DNA of 62,224 nucleotides from a virus. The translations under genes and the position numbers were made by a program. Positions 29,618 through 54,227 of the stretch are shown one piece after another. Below the pieces are notes generated by a model. That model made no database searches, was not told where the DNA came from, and was given only the letters and a program-made list of their open reading frames with translations. How positions within the stretch are numbered: position 1 is the first letter of the stretch; each line of letters starts with the position of its first letter. The DNA lies in IMG/VR virus record IMGVR_UViG_3300032291_003678, positions 1-62,224 of that record; one strand, 5' to 3'.

Positions 29618-31042
29618 TTAATACGTTAATTTATGAACTAATTCTAGGGGCTCCAAATCTTCTACCATAAAGAATTCAAATGGTTTCTTAGGTGTAAATT
29701 TTTCTAATGTTAAATCAATATCTTTAATTACATTATTGCACATCATGCGAGAAGACATTCCTGATTCATCTGATGTTACCCATTCTCTAGCTGCTTTACC
29801 ATTCTCATCTCTTTCTTCAGGAGATAATTCATAAGCTTGTTGAATAGCATTAGCTAAATCTCTAAAGTCTAATCTATCATCCCAAATATAAGGAGTTGTA
29901 GGTGAACCCACTAATGACATATTATTTGGAAATACTGGTATAGCCCATTTACCATGTTTTTTATAAGTACCGAAGTGGTTTGAAGGGAATTCAGGTGTAA
30001 AATCAATCCATTTACCATTTTTATCTTCGAATCTCATTTGATCTTGCATACCACCTGTTACATTAGCAATAATCATTCTACCTGCCATCATAGCCTCAGT
30101 TAATGCTAATCCCCATCCTTCATTTGAAGAAGGTAATACCGTTACATCAGAGATATTATATAAATCGTTTAATTCATTAGTACCAAGTCTTTGATCTGAA
30201 AAGAATATATTTGATTTTGGGCCAAATAATAATGTTTTTACAGCATCTAAATCTGTACCATTTCCATCTACAACTTGAGTGTGTAATACTAAAGCAATTT
30301 TATCTGCTTTTTCTTTAGGTAATGAATCTAAAAACATTTTATGGGCAGCCATTAAATCACTAACACATTTTCTTCTAATATTTCTTGAGTTAAAAAATAC
30401 TACAAAATCAAATTCTTTATCACCAAACAATTTTTTCTTAGTATTTTGTAATTGAGATTTATCTTCTATAGGGAAGAATTGTTTTTCATTAATTCCATGA
30501 GGTACATAAGAGATAAGTTTACCATCTGCTCTTTTACCTAAAACCATTTCATTGATGTTTTTAGTTTGTTTTGAGATAGCTAATAATGTATCACATGATT
30601 CATAAAAGGCTCTATTGTAAAGTGGAGCTGGTAAGTCATCCCAAATATTTAAATAAATCATTGGAATTTGTTTTCTTACTTCATTTTCAATAGCAAATAA
30701 CCAATCATAGTATCTTGGATCTGTAAAAAACATTAAACCATCAGGTTTTTCATTTTTCAACATATATCTGATTAAATCAGCATTACCGTATCCATTATTT
30801 GGGTAAATAACTACATCTGTATCTGTAAGTTGGGTTTCAGTGTTAGTGGCTTGAGATAAATCTAATCTTTGACCATGTTCTGGGTGGTTAATAGCTGCTC
30901 CTATTATTACCCAATTGTAGTGGTGGGCAGTCCCTAAAACTATTTCTCGGGCCATTGTAGCAATACCCGAATGCATTCTAATGTCATCGCAAATGAATAA
31001 TATTTTTTTCCTTTGCTCTTTAGGTAGATAACCTTCTTTCAT
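29618..31042 (-). CDS. GT-B glycosyltransferase (group 1/GT4)
   Basis: 474 aa. RKKILFICDDIRMHSGIATM N-terminus and VTVLPSSNEGWGLALTEAMM donor motif. ADLIRYML and YNRAFYESCDTLL sit in the N-terminal domain. Similar GT-B genes occur in large phages. Furthest upstream gene of the glycan run; a shared promoter with it was not recognised. Confidence 0.8.
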   Translation of the reverse strand: MKEGYLPKEQRKKILFICDDIRMHSGIATMAREIVLGTAHHYNWVIIGAAINHPEHGQRLDLSQATNTETQLTDTDVVIYPNNGYGNADLIRYMLKNEKPDGLMFFTDPRYYDWLFAIENEVRKQIPMIYLNIWDDLPAPLYNRAFYESCDTLLAISKQTKNINEMVLGKRADGKLISYVPHGINEKQFFPIEDKSQLQNTKKKLFGDKEFDFVVFFNSRNIRRKCVSDLMAAHKMFLDSLPKEKADKIALVLHTQVVDGNGTDLDAVKTLLFGPKSNIFFSDQRLGTNELNDLYNISDVTVLPSSNEGWGLALTEAMMAGRMIIANVTGGMQDQMRFEDKNGKWIDFTPEFPSNHFGTYKKHGKWAIPVFPNNMSLVGSPTTPYIWDDRLDFRDLANAIQQAYELSPEERDENGKAAREWVTSDESGMSSRMMCNNVIKDIDLTLEKFTPKKPFEFFMVEDLEPLELVHKLTY

Positions 31043-49069: not shown

Positions 49070-49873
49070 TTAGATAGGTAATTTTACTTTACTTAATAAA
49101 TTATTTGAAACATGTGTATAAATCTCAGTAGTTTTTGAACTTGAATGACCTGCTATTTTCTGAATTATTCTCAGATCTGTTCCTGATTCTAATAAGTTAG
49201 TAAACGAGGAATGTCTTAGTGTATGTATAGAGGAACTAGAATCTATATATTTTTTATATATTTTCTGGCAACTGCCAGTGGAGTATTGTGTTGAATTTTG
49301 GCCATTGAATAGAAACTCTTTTGGTATATATTGTTTGTAATAATTACGTAACAGTATTAGCACATTCTCAGATAAAGGCACTATTCTATCTTTTCTACCT
49401 TTTGCGTTTCTAATATGGATTAACATCCTCTTTGAGTCAATATCTTCAATTTTTAGATTTACAACCTCAGATACCCTTAATCCTACTGAGTAAGTTAGTG
49501 TTAGGATTGTTTTATGTTTTAAATTATCAATCTTAGATAGTTGACTCTTTATAAAATCTCCATCAATAACTCTTGGGAGTTTCTTTTCAGATTTGGGTCT
49601 CTTAAATGAGACTTTACCGTATTTTTTCCCCAGCACTTCTTTGTATAAGAATCTAATAGAGTTTATGACTTGATTCTGCTGGGAGATGGATGTAAAATTG
49701 TAGCTATCTAGATACTTTTGAAAATCGGAAGAATTACAATGTATTATCTGTTTATCACCTAAACTTTCTAAAAATGGTACTATATGTGATAGGTAGTTAT
49801 TTTTTGTTCTAGGAGAGTAGTTTAGGTATATAAACTTTTCTTCGCAAATCTTTATAATTTTTTGATTTTTCAT
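49070..49873 (-). CDS. Tyrosine recombinase beside a cassette array
   Basis: 267 aa, XerC/D-like. N-terminal SAM-like core-binding domain (SPRTKNNYLSHIVPFLESL), then the catalytic domain: Arg in SVGLRVSEV, HTLRHSSFTNLLESG (His and second Arg), GHSS and nucleophile IYTHVSNN. About 50-70 residues shorter than classical IntI, and I see no room for the IntI-specific extra helix. Located 75 bases from the first folded att-like site, it is the obvious candidate to move the cassettes at 49949-54190. It has no copy of the phage promoter motif upstream. Confidence 0.88.
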   Translation of the reverse strand: MKNQKIIKICEEKFIYLNYSPRTKNNYLSHIVPFLESLGDKQIIHCNSSDFQKYLDSYNFTSISQQNQVINSIRFLYKEVLGKKYGKVSFKRPKSEKKLPRVIDGDFIKSQLSKIDNLKHKTILTLTYSVGLRVSEVVNLKIEDIDSKRMLIHIRNAKGRKDRIVPLSENVLILLRNYYKQYIPKEFLFNGQNSTQYSTGSCQKIYKKYIDSSSSIHTLRHSSFTNLLESGTDLRIIQKIAGHSSSKTTEIYTHVSNNLLSKVKLPI

Positions 49874-49948
49874 GTTATAGATACTTAATAATTAACAGTC
49901 TATAAAAAGTTACATATATATTATAGTTATAAAACATTAAAACGATTT

Positions 49949-50079
49949 TATAACATCAAATATAAGAAATTTGGGGGCGGAGGAAACAATCGGTATTTTA
50001 AAGACTCCCACAAGCCGATTTCTTTAATTTAGTGGCACGTTGGCGAACCCCAAACTTCTCATATTTGCGTTACGTTATA
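49949..50079. repeat. Att-like palindrome 1 (next to integrase)
   Basis: Ends TATAAC / GTTATA. Arms CAAATATAAGAAATTTGGGG and CCCCAAACTTCTCATATTTG pair with a few mismatches. Unpaired bases next to the ends are AT on the left and CGTTAC on the right. The loop contains a second small stem (ATCGG / GCCGAT). Candidate attI or the attC of cassette 1. Confidence 0.8.
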
Positions 50080-50085
50080 CAACAT

Positions 50086-50388
50086 TTACTTGAACCAATA
50101 ATAAATTTCCTTTCTTTTATTATTTTCTATTATATAAATGGTAATTTTTCTATCTACAATTTCCAATGAATTAAATTTAAAGTTATTATTTACTACATAA
50201 CCAGTATCTTTATCAATTATAATTAATGATAATTTATTATTTAAATCACCTTCATAATGTGTATCTTTAACAAATAAAATATATTCTGATGGTTGAAATT
50301 CATTTTCATCATCAGTATAATTTTCCATATCTAATATGGTTTTATTAAATAATAAATCGGTTATTTCGTAACTATCTTTTGTTTTCAT
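50086..50388 (-). CDS. Cassette 1 gene: hypothetical protein
   Basis: 100 aa from MKTKDSYEITDLLFNK (ATG at 50388). The longer frame would need a TTG start inside att 2. Mixed beta/alpha, acidic. The stop is 6 bases from att 1. No function recognised. Confidence 0.6.
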   Translation of the reverse strand: MKTKDSYEITDLLFNKTILDMENYTDDENEFQPSEYILFVKDTHYEGDLNNKLSLIIIDKDTGYVVNNNFKFNSLEIVDRKITIYIIENNKRKEIYYWFK

Positions 50389-50400
50389 AAATAAAACGTT

Positions 50401-50492
50401 GTATAACAAGGTATATGTGAAATACCTATAAAATTTATATTAAAATTTAAAGTTCTCTGGTAAGGTACTTCACATATACCCAACCGTTATCG
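50401..50492. repeat. Att-like palindrome 2
   Basis: Ends GTATAAC / GTTATCG. Arms GGTATATGTGAAATACC / GGTACTTCACATATACC pair with one mismatch. Spacers next to the ends are AA on the left and AACC on the right. The stop codon of cassette 2 lies inside the GTTA box. Confidence 0.85.
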
Positions 50493-50741
50493 GTAATTCT
50501 TTTTGGATTTACTATTCGGACATTTTTTATTATGACACAACATTTCACCAAATATTCCAAGAAATCCGTTTCTTGATACTGTTGAGCCGCAATTGGTACA
50601 AAAATGTCCTACGCCTTCTCGTAATACTCTACTTAGTGGGGGTTTTGGTATAGAACTACCGATAACATCAGATATATTCAATTGTTTTTCGTATTCTTGA
50701 ACTATCTGCTTTGCTTTTAAGTAATCTTCTTTTTCTATCAT
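50487..50741 (-). CDS. Cassette 2 gene: zinc-ribbon protein
   Basis: 84 aa. C-terminal zinc ribbon CTNCGSTVSRNGFLG... with CHNKKC as the second knuckle; N-terminal helix with AKQIVQEYEK. The stop overlaps att 2. Function unknown. Confidence 0.6.
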   Translation of the reverse strand: MIEKEDYLKAKQIVQEYEKQLNISDVIGSSIPKPPLSRVLREGVGHFCTNCGSTVSRNGFLGIFGEMLCHNKKCPNSKSKKNYR

Positions 50742-50757
50742 TTGTATTTTAATTTAT

Positions 50758-50796
50758 GTTAAACAACTGAATATATCTGTAACCGTTATAAGCTAT
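50758..50796. repeat. Att-like site 3, degenerate
   Basis: Only the right half is well formed (ATCTG, then AACC, then GTTATAAGC). The left half GTTAAACAACTGAATATAT barely pairs. It may be a decayed or deleted site between cassettes 2 and 3. Confidence 0.45.
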
Positions 50797-51020
50797 GTTA
50801 GCTCAACTGCATCTAAAAGCATAATTATTTTAAATACCTTAAATCCATCATCTCGCCAAGTACCTTTAAACCTTTCTTTTATCATTCTTACTTCGCTTTC
50901 AGAATACTGTTCGGCAAATTCTACCTCTCCAATATCTGTAAAGTAGTCTAGTTTTTTTCCATCAAACTCATTTCTATTCACGTATTCTCCAAATCTATTT
51001 TTAATTACATATCTTTCCAT
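50793..51020 (-). CDS. Cassette 3 gene: hypothetical protein
   Basis: 75 aa from MERYVIKNRFGEYV; the longer frame runs into att 4. RFKGTWRDDGFKVFKIIML suggests a beta-rich fold. Function unknown. Confidence 0.55.
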   Translation of the reverse strand: MERYVIKNRFGEYVNRNEFDGKKLDYFTDIGEVEFAEQYSESEVRMIKERFKGTWRDDGFKVFKIIMLLDAVELT

Positions 51021-51029
51021 AAAAACACA

Positions 51030-51169
51030 GCTTATAACAACTGCTATATTCAATAGCGGTCATTAGGTTTAATTTAATTATTGTTTTGTACTTGTTATTT
51101 TCGGTCATCAACCGAAGCATTGTTTTGTGTTTTTCCGCTACTGAAATATAGCAGTGAACCGTTATAAGC
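51030..51169. repeat. Att-like palindrome 4
   Basis: Ends GCTTATAAC / GTTATAAGC match perfectly. Arms CTGCTATATTCAATAGCGG and CCGCTACTGAAATATAGCAG pair, with one extra T on the right. Spacers AA (left) and TGAACC (right). The loop is about 75 bases. Confidence 0.9.
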
Positions 51170-51173
51170 CATT

Positions 51174-51350
51174 TTAAGACACCGCACCGATTATAGATTC
51201 AATTCGTTTAATAATGTCCAACGTATTATTATATGTGTGGGCTTTTACTGTATGATTGTAATCAGATAAGTTACCTCTATTCATTGCCTCTGAACGTTCT
51301 TCATTTTCTTTTTTTAGTTTTCTAACTAAATCTTTTAATTCGTTTATCAT
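51174..51350 (-). CDS. Cassette 4 gene: 58-aa hypothetical protein
   Basis: MINELKDLVRKLKKENEERS..., a charged N-terminal helix, then NYNNTLDIIKRIESIIG-like sequence. The stop is 4 bases from att 4. Function unknown. Confidence 0.55.
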   Translation of the reverse strand: MINELKDLVRKLKKENEERSEAMNRGNLSDYNHTVKAHTYNNTLDIIKRIESIIGAVS

Positions 51351-51377
51351 TTTAAGTAAGATTTTTGAATAAAAACG

Positions 51378-51511
51378 GCTTATAACAGCATATTGCCAAA
51401 AGTGGCAGTTGTGTGGTTATATGAACATTTTTGCTTCGATTATACATTTGTTTTAAATTCAAGTTTAGTGCTTCGTATTCGCCTCCTTCGGCAATCTGCA
51501 AACCGTTATCA
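51378..51511. repeat. Att-like palindrome 5
   Basis: Ends GCTTATAAC / GTTATCAC. Arms GCATATTGCC / GGCAATCTGC with one mismatch. The right spacer contains AAACC before GTTA. Loop about 90 bases. Confidence 0.8.
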
Positions 51512-51517
51512 CCAATA

Positions 51518-51742
51518 CTACCTTAGTGCTTCTAATTCAGATTTTACTTCACTCCAAACTGTTATAGCAGATGGTGTTTCATCATCATAAGTATCCCAAT
51601 ATATGCGTGTTGGATTTTCTTCCAAAATCTTATCCACAATTAGTAATGCTACTTCAATACATTCTTCATAATGTAATGGTGCTTTGAAACTTATTTCTTT
51701 CAATAATGTTTCAGCTTTAAGTTTTACTTCTTCTTTTGTCAT
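51518..51742 (-). CDS. Cassette 5 gene: hypothetical protein
   Basis: 74 aa. Helical N-terminus (EEVKLKAETLLKEISF), then YEECIEVALLIVDKIL. The stop is 6 bases from att 5. Function unknown. Confidence 0.55.
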   Translation of the reverse strand: MTKEEVKLKAETLLKEISFKAPLHYEECIEVALLIVDKILEENPTRIYWDTYDDETPSAITVWSEVKSELEALR

Positions 51743-51776
51743 TTTAATTAAATTTATCGTTAATAATCCGTACTGG

Positions 51777-51871
51777 TGCTAACAGCGTATATATAAGATA
51801 CGCCTACAAGCATTTGTTTATAATTTAATATTTTCGTTAAGGCGTACCTCTCATATACGCAACCGTTAGCA
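51777..51871. repeat. Att-like palindrome 6
   Basis: Ends TGCTAAC / GTTAGCA match perfectly. Arms GCGTATATATAAGATACGCC / GGCGTACCTCTCATATACGC pair with a few mismatches. Spacers A (left) and AACC (right). Confidence 0.88.
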
Positions 51872-51877
51872 ACAAGG

Positions 51878-52153
51878 CTAAGAAAGCTCCGTGCGAAGTT
51901 TCTCAAAGTATTTAATTGCTTTCTCGATACTCTCTTTGTCTCGTTTGATATTAAAGAAAATATTGGTTTCTGAACCGCTTGCAGTTCGAATAGTTCGCTG
52001 TGTATTTGGTTCGATATATTGAAACATTACGTTTATAAAATCGCTTGTAATGTCTTCTTTTTCACCAATCCACATTCCTTTTTCTTGGTTCTGTTTACCT
52101 AAGTAAATCTTTTCTGTTAGTGGCGAATAGCCAATTCCTTTTTTGATACTCAT
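51878..52153 (-). CDS. Cassette 6 gene: hypothetical protein
   Basis: 91 aa. YSPLTEKIYLGKQNQEKGMW and a basic C-terminal helix. I have seen such short Bacteroidota proteins but not with a function. The stop is 6 bases from att 6. Confidence 0.55.
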   Translation of the reverse strand: MSIKKGIGYSPLTEKIYLGKQNQEKGMWIGEKEDITSDFINVMFQYIEPNTQRTIRTASGSETNIFFNIKRDKESIEKAIKYFEKLRTELS

Positions 52154-52198
52154 TTTATTTTAGTTATTAAGTTAAAAATCAATTTAATAAAGCCCAGT

Positions 52199-52290
52199 TG
52201 CTAACACCGTGTATAAGCAATGGCACACAAGCGGTGTAGGTAATTTGAAAGTGTGTATAAGTGCCACTGCTCATACACGAAACGTTAGCG
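52199..52290. repeat. Att-like palindrome 7
   Basis: Ends TGCTAAC / GTTAGCG. Arms CGTGTATAAGCAATGGCAC / GTGCCACTGCTCATACACG pair with few mismatches. Spacers AC (left) and AAAC (right). Confidence 0.88.
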
Positions 52291-52296
52291 GTCAGG

Positions 52297-52641
52297 CTAA
52301 GAACACACAACCTTATCAAGAACCTTTGTAAAATGAGTTCTTAAATCTTCAAGGTGCTTTTCGGTCGCTGACAACTTACCCTGCAACAAGTTTTCGTTTT
52401 CGTTCTTAATCCCAACACGACTATTATAGTCGCCAACAGCCTTTAGAAAATCATTAGCAAAATGCCTATTCATTTCTAATAACGGTATTAAAGGTTCTGC
52501 CGCTGCGTTCATTGGGTCAAGAGTTTGCTCAATTAGTAATCCGTCTTTTTGACCGATAATAGCAATCCTATTGCCTTGCTGTGTTTTTAGATACATTCTA
52601 ACAGTCATTGACTGATAATCTTCTTGAAATATAAATTCCAT
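52297..52641 (-). CDS. Cassette 7 gene: hypothetical protein
   Basis: 114 aa. N-terminal beta (QSMTVRMYLKTQQGNRIAII), then helices (GKLSATEKHLEDLRTHFTKVL). The stop is 6 bases from att 7. Function unknown. Confidence 0.55.
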   Translation of the reverse strand: MEFIFQEDYQSMTVRMYLKTQQGNRIAIIGQKDGLLIEQTLDPMNAAAEPLIPLLEMNRHFANDFLKAVGDYNSRVGIKNENENLLQGKLSATEKHLEDLRTHFTKVLDKVVCS

Positions 52642-52688
52642 TTTGTTGTTATTAAACTTTGGACTTCTAAAAGCGGAGAAGCCCGAAC

Positions 52689-52818
52689 CGCTAACACTTG
52701 CTTTGCAAAATGGCGGGTGAAGTGCTAATTTGAACCCTTGTGCCTTGAATAAACTTTAGTGCTTAACGAACATTTGTGCCTTGAAAACCGCCACTTCGCA
52801 AAGCAGATGCCGTTATAG
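52689..52818. repeat. Att-like palindrome 8
   Basis: Ends CGCTAAC / GTTATAG (weaker match). Arms CTTGCTTTGCAAAATGGCGG / CCGCCACTTCGCAAAGCAG pair well. GCC precedes the right GTTA. Confidence 0.82.
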
Positions 52819-52831
52819 GTAATAAAATTTA

Positions 52832-52999
52832 CTACCCTTTGTTTTTAAATTGTTTTATATATCTATCACCAACTTCGTTCCAAAGTCGTCTTGCTTGTTC
52901 GTAATCACCGACACTTATTTCTGCTTCAAATATCACTTCAAAGTGTTCTTCTGTACACTCCTTTGCAACTTCTTTTTTTATTTCATCTATTGTTTTCAT
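52832..52999 (-). CDS. Cassette 8 gene: 55-aa hypothetical protein
   Basis: MKTIDEIKKEVAKECTEEHF..., a helical acidic protein with a basic C-terminal YIKQFKNKG. The stop is 13 bases from att 8. Function unknown. Confidence 0.55.
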   Translation of the reverse strand: MKTIDEIKKEVAKECTEEHFEVIFEAEISVGDYEQARRLWNEVGDRYIKQFKNKG

Positions 53000-53018
53000 A
53001 ATTCGTAAATTTTACATA

Positions 53019-53117
53019 CCTATAACAAAGTGTATAAGTAATGTGGCTTAATTAATTTTGTTCTTTGATTAAATGTGTGAGTAAAGCCACACTACTCATA
53101 CACTCAACCGTTATAAG
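53019..53117. repeat. Att-like palindrome 9
   Basis: Ends CCTATAAC / GTTATAAG. Arms AGTGTATAAGTAATGTGGCT / AGCCACACTACTCATACACT pair with few mismatches. Spacers AA (left) and CAACC (right). Confidence 0.88.
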
Positions 53118-53120
53118 AAA

Positions 53121-53402
53121 TTATTTTTCCAATTTTTTATAATTCTTTGCATATAAGTATATCCCTAACCATATCCAAATTCCTGTTAATATACCAGTTA
53201 GTCTAACAAAAATTGGAAACTCAAAAGAAAAAATTAATGAGATATGTGTGATTATTACACCTAAGTGTAATCCTAATAAAAATAATGGTATTATAATGAA
53301 CCACAGTACAAATTTTTCTTTTGTTAAATAACTACTTATAACAACAGATATACCCAATTCGGGTCTCCGTATTTCATTTAAGTTTTCTACGTTTTTATTC
53401 AT
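53121..53402 (-). CDS. Cassette 9 gene: two-pass membrane protein
   Basis: 93 aa with hydrophobic helices (FIIIPLFLLGLHLGVIITHI and FVRLTGILTGIWIWLGIYLYA) and a basic C-terminus. The only ATG lies inside the loop of att 10, so the first 20 residues would be encoded by the recombination site. A start at a non-ATG codon after the site is an alternative. Confidence 0.55.
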   Translation of the reverse strand: MNKNVENLNEIRRPELGISVVISSYLTKEKFVLWFIIIPLFLLGLHLGVIITHISLIFSFEFPIFVRLTGILTGIWIWLGIYLYAKNYKKLEK

Positions 53403-53466
53403 TTTATCTTTTATTTAAGTTATTACTATTTAATCCCGAACTTGGTATATCTGCAACCGTTATGTG
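53334..53466. repeat. Att-like palindrome 10
   Basis: Ends ACTTATAAC / GTTATGTG. Arms CAGATATACCCAATTCGGG / CCCGAACTTGGTATATCTG pair almost fully. Spacers AA (left) and CAACC (right). Its loop overlaps the 5' end of the cassette 9 ORF. Confidence 0.88.
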
Positions 53467-53496
53467 AGATTGTTACGATTCGTTTTCAAAAGAAAT

Positions 53497-53667
53497 TTAG
53501 TCAATAAGAATTATTTCACTCACTTTGACGAAAAGAAATACTTTATCGTTTTGGTCGCTAAATATTTGAAAATCGGCACACCCTTTTATTATATTCTGCT
53601 TAAGAATTTCAGCCGTTTCTTGTAATATTTCTTTTTTTGTTCCGTTTTTAAAATGAATTGTCATCAT
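53497..53667 (-). CDS. Cassette 10 gene: 56-aa hypothetical protein
   Basis: MMTIHFKNGTKKEILQETAE..., then DNDKVFLFVKVSEIIL-like beta strands. This is a small alpha/beta protein. The stop is 30 bases from att 10. Function unknown. Confidence 0.5.
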   Translation of the reverse strand: MMTIHFKNGTKKEILQETAEILKQNIIKGCADFQIFSDQNDKVFLFVKVSEIILID

Positions 53668-53696
53668 AATGTTTTGTTTTAAAAACCCACAACCTC

Positions 53697-53830
53697 ACAT
53701 AACAAGTGTTTGGCAAAAAAGCGGGTTTGGTTATTAATTTAATGTTTGTTTTTTATTTGTATGTTTTAGGCTTAATCGAAGTTTTAGGCTTGTTTTTCCG
53801 CTTCTTCGCCAAGCACCGTAACGTTAGCGG
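53697..53830. repeat. Att-like palindrome 11
   Basis: Ends CACATAAC / GTTAGCGG are only partly complementary. Arms GTGTTTGGCAAAAAAGCGG / CCGCTTCTTCGCCAAGCAC pair with few mismatches. Right spacer GTAAC. Confidence 0.8.
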
Positions 53831-54043
53831 TCATTTTTTAGAAACGATGTCGTTACCCCATTCATCCTCTTTTAAATCGCCTGTATATTCTGTAACTTGA
53901 TAACTAACTTTCATTTTTACAATAAACCCAGCTTTACAACATTCAGAAGCTATTAATTTTGAGCCACCAACAGAATAAGTTTCTAAATTTCTATAAACAA
54001 CATTTGGTATTTTTAATTCCTTTTTACAATTTGGACATTCCAT
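53831..54043 (-). CDS. Cassette 11 gene: zinc-knuckle protein
   Basis: 70 aa. N-terminal CPNC and a later ECC pair could bind zinc (ECPNCKKELKIPNVVY...SECCKAGF). The stop directly abuts att 11. First cassette reached by the promoter at 54217-54227. Function unknown. Confidence 0.6.
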   Translation of the reverse strand: MECPNCKKELKIPNVVYRNLETYSVGGSKLIASECCKAGFIVKMKVSYQVTEYTGDLKEDEWGNDIVSKK

Positions 54044-54053
54044 AATTAAAACG

Positions 54054-54190
54054 AGTTATAACAGCAATTACACGCTATTGCTAGATTAGGTTTAATTCAA
54101 TGTTCAGTTATAGTCTTTCAATTCCTTGTTAAACTGAAAGATTGTTTTGTCCTTTTACTCAACAGACGTGTAGTTGCGTAACGTTAGCAC
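54054..54190. repeat. Att-like palindrome 12 (outer end)
   Basis: Left box TTATAAC, right box GTTAGCAC. Arms GCAATTACACG / CGTGTAGTTGC pair, loop about 95 bases. This is the last site before ordinary phage sequence and a candidate for the platform (attI-like) site. Confidence 0.8.
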
Positions 54191-54216
54191 CAATACTACT
54201 TAGTTTTCTAATACTT

Positions 54217-54227
54217 AAATATACGAA
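54217..54227 (-). promoter_or_regulatory. Phage promoter motif facing into the cassette array
   Basis: Recurrent motif, about 25 bases outside att 12, directed at cassette 11. No other copy occurs until 49036, so this is the only recognised promoter for the whole array. Confidence 0.65.

Follow-up and report, generated by a model that had tools for sequence, protein, structure and literature searches.

The question raised by this locus is whether a phage can carry an integron of its own, and if so, whether that integron works with the enzyme known from bacteria. The 62,224-nt IMG/VR viral record IMGVR_UViG_3300032291_003678, analysed over its whole length (referred to as the window), contains at positions 49070-54190 a tyrosine recombinase gene next to an array of small one-gene cassettes that are separated by hairpins. 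Integrons are usually seen as bacterial devices for the capture of genes, and the additional domain of their integrase IntI reads folded attC sites. We consider it probable (roughly 0.86) that the array and the recombinase form a phage-encoded integron-type platform. Such platforms in phages had been called at best rarely described by an earlier note on this DNA, which is a fair statement given that 3 integrons and 17 clusters of attC sites lacking an integron integrase (CALINs) have been reported from 10,705 phage genomes (PMC9892861).

Attachment sites of the array

The array was analysed by a stem scan of the whole 62-kb window and a cross-pairing control. The scan finds 12 hairpins of the form TAACG...GTTA on the minus strand, all in one orientation, at 49951-54186. 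These are 12 of the 15 candidates that reach a score of at least 9; the other three are weak and lie elsewhere. Ten dinucleotide shuffles of the whole window yielded 2-6 matches at score 9 and 0-1 at score 12, and never reached score 14; among the 12 real sites, 10 exceed a score of 12. Stems score 15.9 when the two arms of the same site are paired and 7.1 when arms of different sites are paired, so that structure rather than sequence is conserved. The sites are thus built like attC sites: imperfect palindromes with R'' (...AAC) and R' (GTT...) boxes and with more conservation in structure than in sequence.

The earlier note had proposed folding each site as single-stranded DNA. In this analysis, 11 of the 12 sites are 1.8-5.0 standard deviations more stable than their mononucleotide-shuffled copies, the exception being 51383-51508 (z=-0.7). 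The minus strand folds more stably than the plus strand in 12/12 sites, which stems from asymmetric spacers and G-T wobbles; a regular extrahelical base was not seen when the folds were inspected by eye. The hairpins alternate with 11 small open reading frames (ORFs), which are all encoded on the minus strand and lie 5' of the recombinase gene. The regular alternation of 11 one-strand ORFs with 12 TAAC...GTTA palindromes, as first described, is thus borne out by the stem scan, the shuffles and the folding. The note itself had named ordinary terminators as the explanation that would undo its reading. It finds no support: only 5 terminator-like sites occur, compared to 2.1 expected, and they do not match the set of array hairpins. 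A search of Rfam returned no match for the hairpins.

An attI was missing from the earlier description. It is found at approximately 49909-49929 on the minus strand, as a conserved AACTATTATATATA motif which joins the array to the recombinase gene. The insertion point lies between G49926 and T49927 (G|TTA on the plus strand, TAA|C on the minus strand). In nearly every related locus (see below), the end of the last cassette (..TAAC) continues directly into AACTATTATATATA shortly 5' of the recombinase start. The strict AACTATTATATATA pattern is present 5' of the recombinase in 86/99 loci, most commonly at a spacing of 55 nt, and TAA|C is the exact joint between it and different cassettes. Hence an attI lies beside the recombinase gene and is used for insertion.

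A further motif, GAAGCAC(N4-6)GTAGYATTG, is often observed before the TAAC end of a cassette. Strict matches number 7 on the 5' side of the recombinase and 0 on the other side. The motif is found next to attI in five loci (L009, L015, L037, L040, L062), and a partial copy is retained at the far flank of the window's array (54184-54200).

Linkage to the recombinase and exchange of cassettes

Three scans of IMG/VR with the recombinase from the window and two of its relatives resulted in 98 distinct loci. When sites were counted within 4 kb of the gene, with near-duplicates removed, at least one site was present in 58 and at least two in 51 of the 61 contigs that have at least 2 kb of sequence 5' of the recombinase gene. 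On this 5' side, 261 sites are in the orientation seen in the window and 2 in the opposite one; the 3' side, available for 50 contigs, has 5 and 1, respectively. A contig end lies within 5 kb on the array side in 43/98 loci and on the other side in 19/98, as expected if the array is repetitive or variable. A terminase gene of one family was detected in 6/11 records tested. The window comes from a virus of Bacteroidota bacteria that is related to Flavobacterium phage immuto, and the syntenic region of immuto around thyA contains neither the recombinase nor such sites. At least 120 viral stretches contain one and the same 48-nt attC as an exact match, and contigs as long as 362 and 465 kb are among them.

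This linkage bears on the possibility that the array is a passive CALIN, i.e. that the phage carries host integron cassettes which are moved by a host IntI, while the neighbouring recombinase serves phage integration or dimer resolution. True IntI was found in 105/395 sampled Bacteroidota genomes, and Polaribacter phage P12002L has sites of the same type with no recombinase annotated. A P12002L attC, not necessarily one of this type, was active with the class 1 integrase IntI1 (PMC9892861). On the other hand, a dedicated attI directly before the recombinase clade is conserved across phages, the linkage between recombinase and array is near-universal in contigs with enough sequence, and the cassettes are reversed relative to the canonical arrangement (see below). 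We thus regard a passive array as improbable.

Evidence for mobility comes from the cassette ends. Beyond the TAAC/GTTA core, complementarity between the opposite ends of a cassette extends over a mean of 4.4 nt (6 in 123/240 cases), while the value is 0.87 for the two flanks of one site; the complementarity of cassette ends holds within the window alone (p=0.006). Because it is the ends of a cassette, and not the flanks of a site, which are complementary, the R-box arms are parts of a single unit which had once been closed on itself. Such a trace is expected from circular units that are closed at the R box.

Closely related loci differ exactly at the cassette junctions (TAA|C; read on the opposite strand, G|TTA), in line with what the earlier note had set as a test for cassette gain and changes in order. 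Locus L014 is 99.8% identical to L028 and L029 over 3,039 nt 3' of the recombinase, and the shared cassettes, mostly 100% identical, occur in permuted order. One of the units borders on an attC in L014; in L028 and L029, its partner is attI. A 100% identical unit is shared by L025 and L060 even though their recombinases are only 60% identical at the amino acid level; at either end of the unit, the shared sequence gives way to unrelated sequence precisely at TAA|C. The same is seen in L055 and L065, with recombinases that are 67% identical. As judged from these sequence comparisons, cassettes move as units bounded at G|TT and are exchanged between phages at base-precise junctions. A boundary on the GTTA side had also been considered, but the histogram of distances to BLAST alignment ends was poor, since the true boundary is on the TAAC side.

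It might be argued that homologous recombination between repeated hairpins, be they terminators or RNA leaders, makes the array variable, with no site-specific recombination involved. An identical 48-nt core is common to many attCs and could support such recombination. The precision of the joints is against it, as unrelated sequences meet exactly at TAA|C, at both ends and in attC-attI joints too, and so are the complementarity of the cassette ends and the Rfam and terminator results given above. We consider this explanation very unlikely.

Cassette polarity, expression, and content

According to the shared units, what moves is a site together with the ORF that follows it, bounded on one side by the TAAC of this site and on the other by the TAAC of the next site downstream or by attI. 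The usual arrangement, an ORF followed by its attC, had been assumed in the earlier note; the junctions show an attC followed by an ORF in the coding direction. The canonical polarity was considered and ruled out by the junctions and by the attI joints. Where shared cassettes reveal which site travels with the ORF, it is the upstream one in 3 pairs, with 0 pairs against, informative pairs being few. As many as 264/267 phage cassette ORFs point to the integrase and are thereby reversed relative to attC; ORFs followed by their attC and read away from attI from the promoter Pc are not what is found. Two ORFs in the window (50487-50741 and 53121-53402) have their start codon within the loop of their own attC, which fits the attC-then-ORF polarity.

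The array was delimited accordingly, with all units on the minus strand. Cassette 1 (50075-50486) consists of ORF 50086-50388 and attC 50404-50489. In cassette 2 (50487-50785; ORF 50487-50741, attC 50663-50788), TAA of the R box is the stop codon of the ORF that starts in its own attC loop. Cassettes 3 (50786-51161; ORF 50793-51020, attC 51035-51164), 4 (51162-51505; ORF 51174-51350, attC 51383-51508) and 5 (51506-51865; ORF 51518-51742, attC 51780-51868) are followed by cassette 6 (51866-52284; attC 52202-52287), the ORF of which (51878-52153) codes for a DUF7446 protein. Next are cassettes 7 (52285-52812; ORF 52297-52641, attC 52692-52815) and 8 (52813-53110; ORF 52832-52999, attC 53023-53113), and then cassette 9 (53111-53459; attC 53339-53462) with the second ORF that starts in its own attC loop (53121-53402). 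The far end is formed by cassettes 10 (53460-53823; ORF 53497-53667, attC 53700-53826) and 11 (53824-54183; ORF 53831-54043, attC 54059-54186). The hairpin nearest to the recombinase (attC 49951-50077) is part of a mini-cassette without an ORF (unit 0, 49927-50074), in which 9-bp arms enclose the 11-nt loop TCGTTTTAATG (49935-49945) in place of the ORF.

In some cassettes, an arm of the attC is translated, so that unrelated proteins share the N-terminal peptide NLNISDV or QLNISDV. Such fusions are found in the window (50487-50741) and, among others, in L021, L004, and L047.

Concerning expression, the promoter-like motif TCGTATATTTAAGTAT occurs 29 times in the whole window, mostly on the minus strand, compared to 3.4 expected. 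That the cassettes lack this phage motif, as had been stated, is correct: there is no copy within the array, and the next one follows after the recombinase. However, an exact copy is located at 54211-54226 on the minus strand, immediately before the array as read in the coding direction. From its position, it would transcribe the whole array and the recombinase, which may thus be one transcription unit. If so, the reversed ORFs would be explained, because the phage promoter reads only cassettes in that orientation.

The 276 cassette ORFs have a median length of 89 aa and fall into 235 clusters, 210 of them singletons. Pfam domains are few among 144 representatives and include DNA methyltransferases, RNA ligase, PARP, YopX, and DUF7446, among others. 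Methyltransferases dominate the PADLOC matches and are common in PHROG matches. The gene of cassette 7 has a homolog (75% at the nucleotide level) in another viral contig (L293), where it is an ordinary gene with no array around it. Of three window cassettes queried against viral contigs, the first returned no relative, the second a single one outside any array, and the third two at 51-64% amino acid identity.

The loop seen in unit 0 recurs. TCGTTTTAATG is oriented and closes hairpins whose stems have a set length; this is mostly 11-12 bp in the minimal attCs of 48 nt, and 9 bp in mini-cassettes without an ORF. There are 82 copies in 244 kb of arrays (e.g., L014, L028, L013), with 0 reversed, and 2 copies in 1.52 Mb of non-array flank. 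This loop may mark how attCs or cassettes are made.

The recombinase and known systems

The tyrosine recombinase which the earlier note had placed next to the array is a protein of 267 aa (49070-49873, minus strand; Pfam PF00589, 5e-34), the proposed phage integron integrase. Its catalytic residues (R133, K158, H217, R220, H243, Y252) are invariant in an alignment of 26 relatives. In sequence, it resembles XerA-type enzymes (4A8E, 5HXY) and the integron integrase 2A3V; in profile searches, it matches NF040815 with 171 bits and TIGR02249 with 155 bits in two stretches, the cut-off of the latter being 265. When applied to viral records and to control genomes, TIGR02249 was uninformative, as any Xer protein matches it weakly.

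Has the phage then acquired a canonical IntI-family integron from a bacterial chromosome? The logic of attI, attC, and cassettes is the same, and the top Foldseek match by E-value of the predicted model (pLDDT 83.8) is 2A3V. Yet TIGR02249 stays below its cut-off, with about 47 residues missing, and the IntI segment around profile positions 180-255 is absent. Between the patch II region and HxLRH, the phage recombinase has about 49 residues, compared to 96 in those IntI for which this could be measured; it thus lacks the additional domain that is specific to IntI and located near patch III. In a maximum-likelihood tree of the phage enzymes with 25 IntI, 14 XerC/XerD, and 29 bacterial relatives, the 25 IntI form a long branch of their own (100/100), and the phage recombinases are outside of it. 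Together with four sequences from metagenome-assembled genomes, which may be phage contigs, the phage enzymes form a clade (100/99) beside XerA-like enzymes that lack the insert. As the cassettes are also reversed, we give practically no credence to an acquired IntI integron.

The earlier proposal of a phage integron-like platform stands with respect to the linkage of recombinase, attI, and array and to base-precise exchange; it does not hold for the polarity of the cassettes, and it lacked the attI and the finding that domain and phylogeny place the recombinase outside IntI. Some points weigh against an integron-type platform. The recombinase lacks the additional domain which defines IntI and is reported as necessary for integron recombination (PMC9668308, with reference to Messier and Roy 2001; PMC8138268). 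The relatives are mostly metagenomic contigs and could be affected by chimeric assembly, yet identical cassettes recur across independent datasets. Also, homologous recombination between identical 48-nt attCs could yield part of the reshuffling.

If the platform works as an integron, the XerA-like recombinase would be the catalyst of cassette movement. It would recognise a folded single strand of each attC hairpin and cut at TAA|C (opposite strand: G|TTA). Cassettes would be excised as circles with one attC and one ORF, and be inserted at the attI immediately 5' of the recombinase gene or at other attCs. Each attC forms the 5' leader of its gene, with all ORFs directed toward the integrase, and a single transcript probably starts at the phage promoter at the far end and covers first the cassettes and then the recombinase gene.

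On balance, we lean slightly towards a broader view. It holds that this is a phage-dedicated integron lineage without the additional domain of IntI, with reversed cassettes and with attCs that double as 5' leaders, sometimes including the start codon. Cassettes would circulate among many Bacteroidota phages, jumbo-sized ones included, which would draw their small accessory genes from a common pool, and the fixed 11-nt hairpin loop would mark the making of attCs or cassettes. A large group of viral contigs has its own version of the integron, with no extra domain and with the genes turned round, and divergent phages exchange identical cassettes. This offers a natural experiment on which parts an integron integrase requires and a possible route by which phages assemble accessory genes, and the fixed loop offers a lead on the question of cassette origin.

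In the literature searched, with preprints and most subscription papers outside that search, no description was found of a platform dedicated to phages that combines reversed cassettes with an integrase lacking the insert. Phage integrons and CALINs as such are already known (Qi et al., 2023), and 5/6 phage attCs recombined with attI1 through IntI1 in that study (PMC9892861). The cassettes with attC sites reported there are phage-borne as well, but the three complete integrons are from temperate phages and the elements are captured bacterial integrons or integrase-less CALINs; a dedicated platform with its own integrase clade and attI, on contigs of many sizes, is not among them. The window locus is formally without IntI, as is a CALIN, but it has a conserved non-IntI recombinase and an attI adjacent to the array. 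The lytic isolate P12002L (L292, NC_028924), whose CALIN is among those reported in that study and for which no recombinase is annotated, has the TCGTTTTAATG loop in its attachment sites at 30008-30056 and near 30926, and its methyltransferase cassettes have the same ORF polarity as the array in the window.

The closest cellular recombinases (about 40-55% amino acid identity) are those of the Bacteroidota NF040815 loci (L167-L246), which also lack the IntI insert. Several of these loci have arrays of the same type of site (TAAC...CGTTA), with a cassette-end complementarity of 4.8 versus 0.9. Their attI and array are 3' of the gene and their ORFs are canonical in 16/17 cases, in contrast to the phages with arrays on the 5' side and reversed ORFs. 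An insert-lacking integron type thus seems to exist in Bacteroidota chromosomes, and these XerA-like loci may represent a little-described type of integron. In the 'reverse' integrons of spirochaetes, integrase gene and array are likewise unusually oriented to each other, but there it is the integrase gene that is reported to be reversed (PMC9668308), while here it is the cassette ORFs which are turned round with respect to attC, and the integrase does not belong to IntI.

In comparison with bacterial integrons, both class 1 and chromosomal, the phage platform has the same components: a recombinase gene, an adjacent attI, tandem one-ORF cassettes in heterogeneous arrays, and structured sites with R' and R'' boxes and a unit boundary at G|TTA. 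When viewed on the opposite strand, the recombinase gene is likewise divergent from the array, with attI beside it. It differs in that the recombinase lacks the additional domain and is outside the IntI clade, the ORFs are reversed relative to attC, the complementary R arms reach about 10 bp, and a phage promoter motif is at the far end of the array, as opposed to the known Pc at the attI side. The platform probably works in the manner of an integron, and by the two features tested, the additional domain and membership in the IntI clade, it is not an IntI integron.

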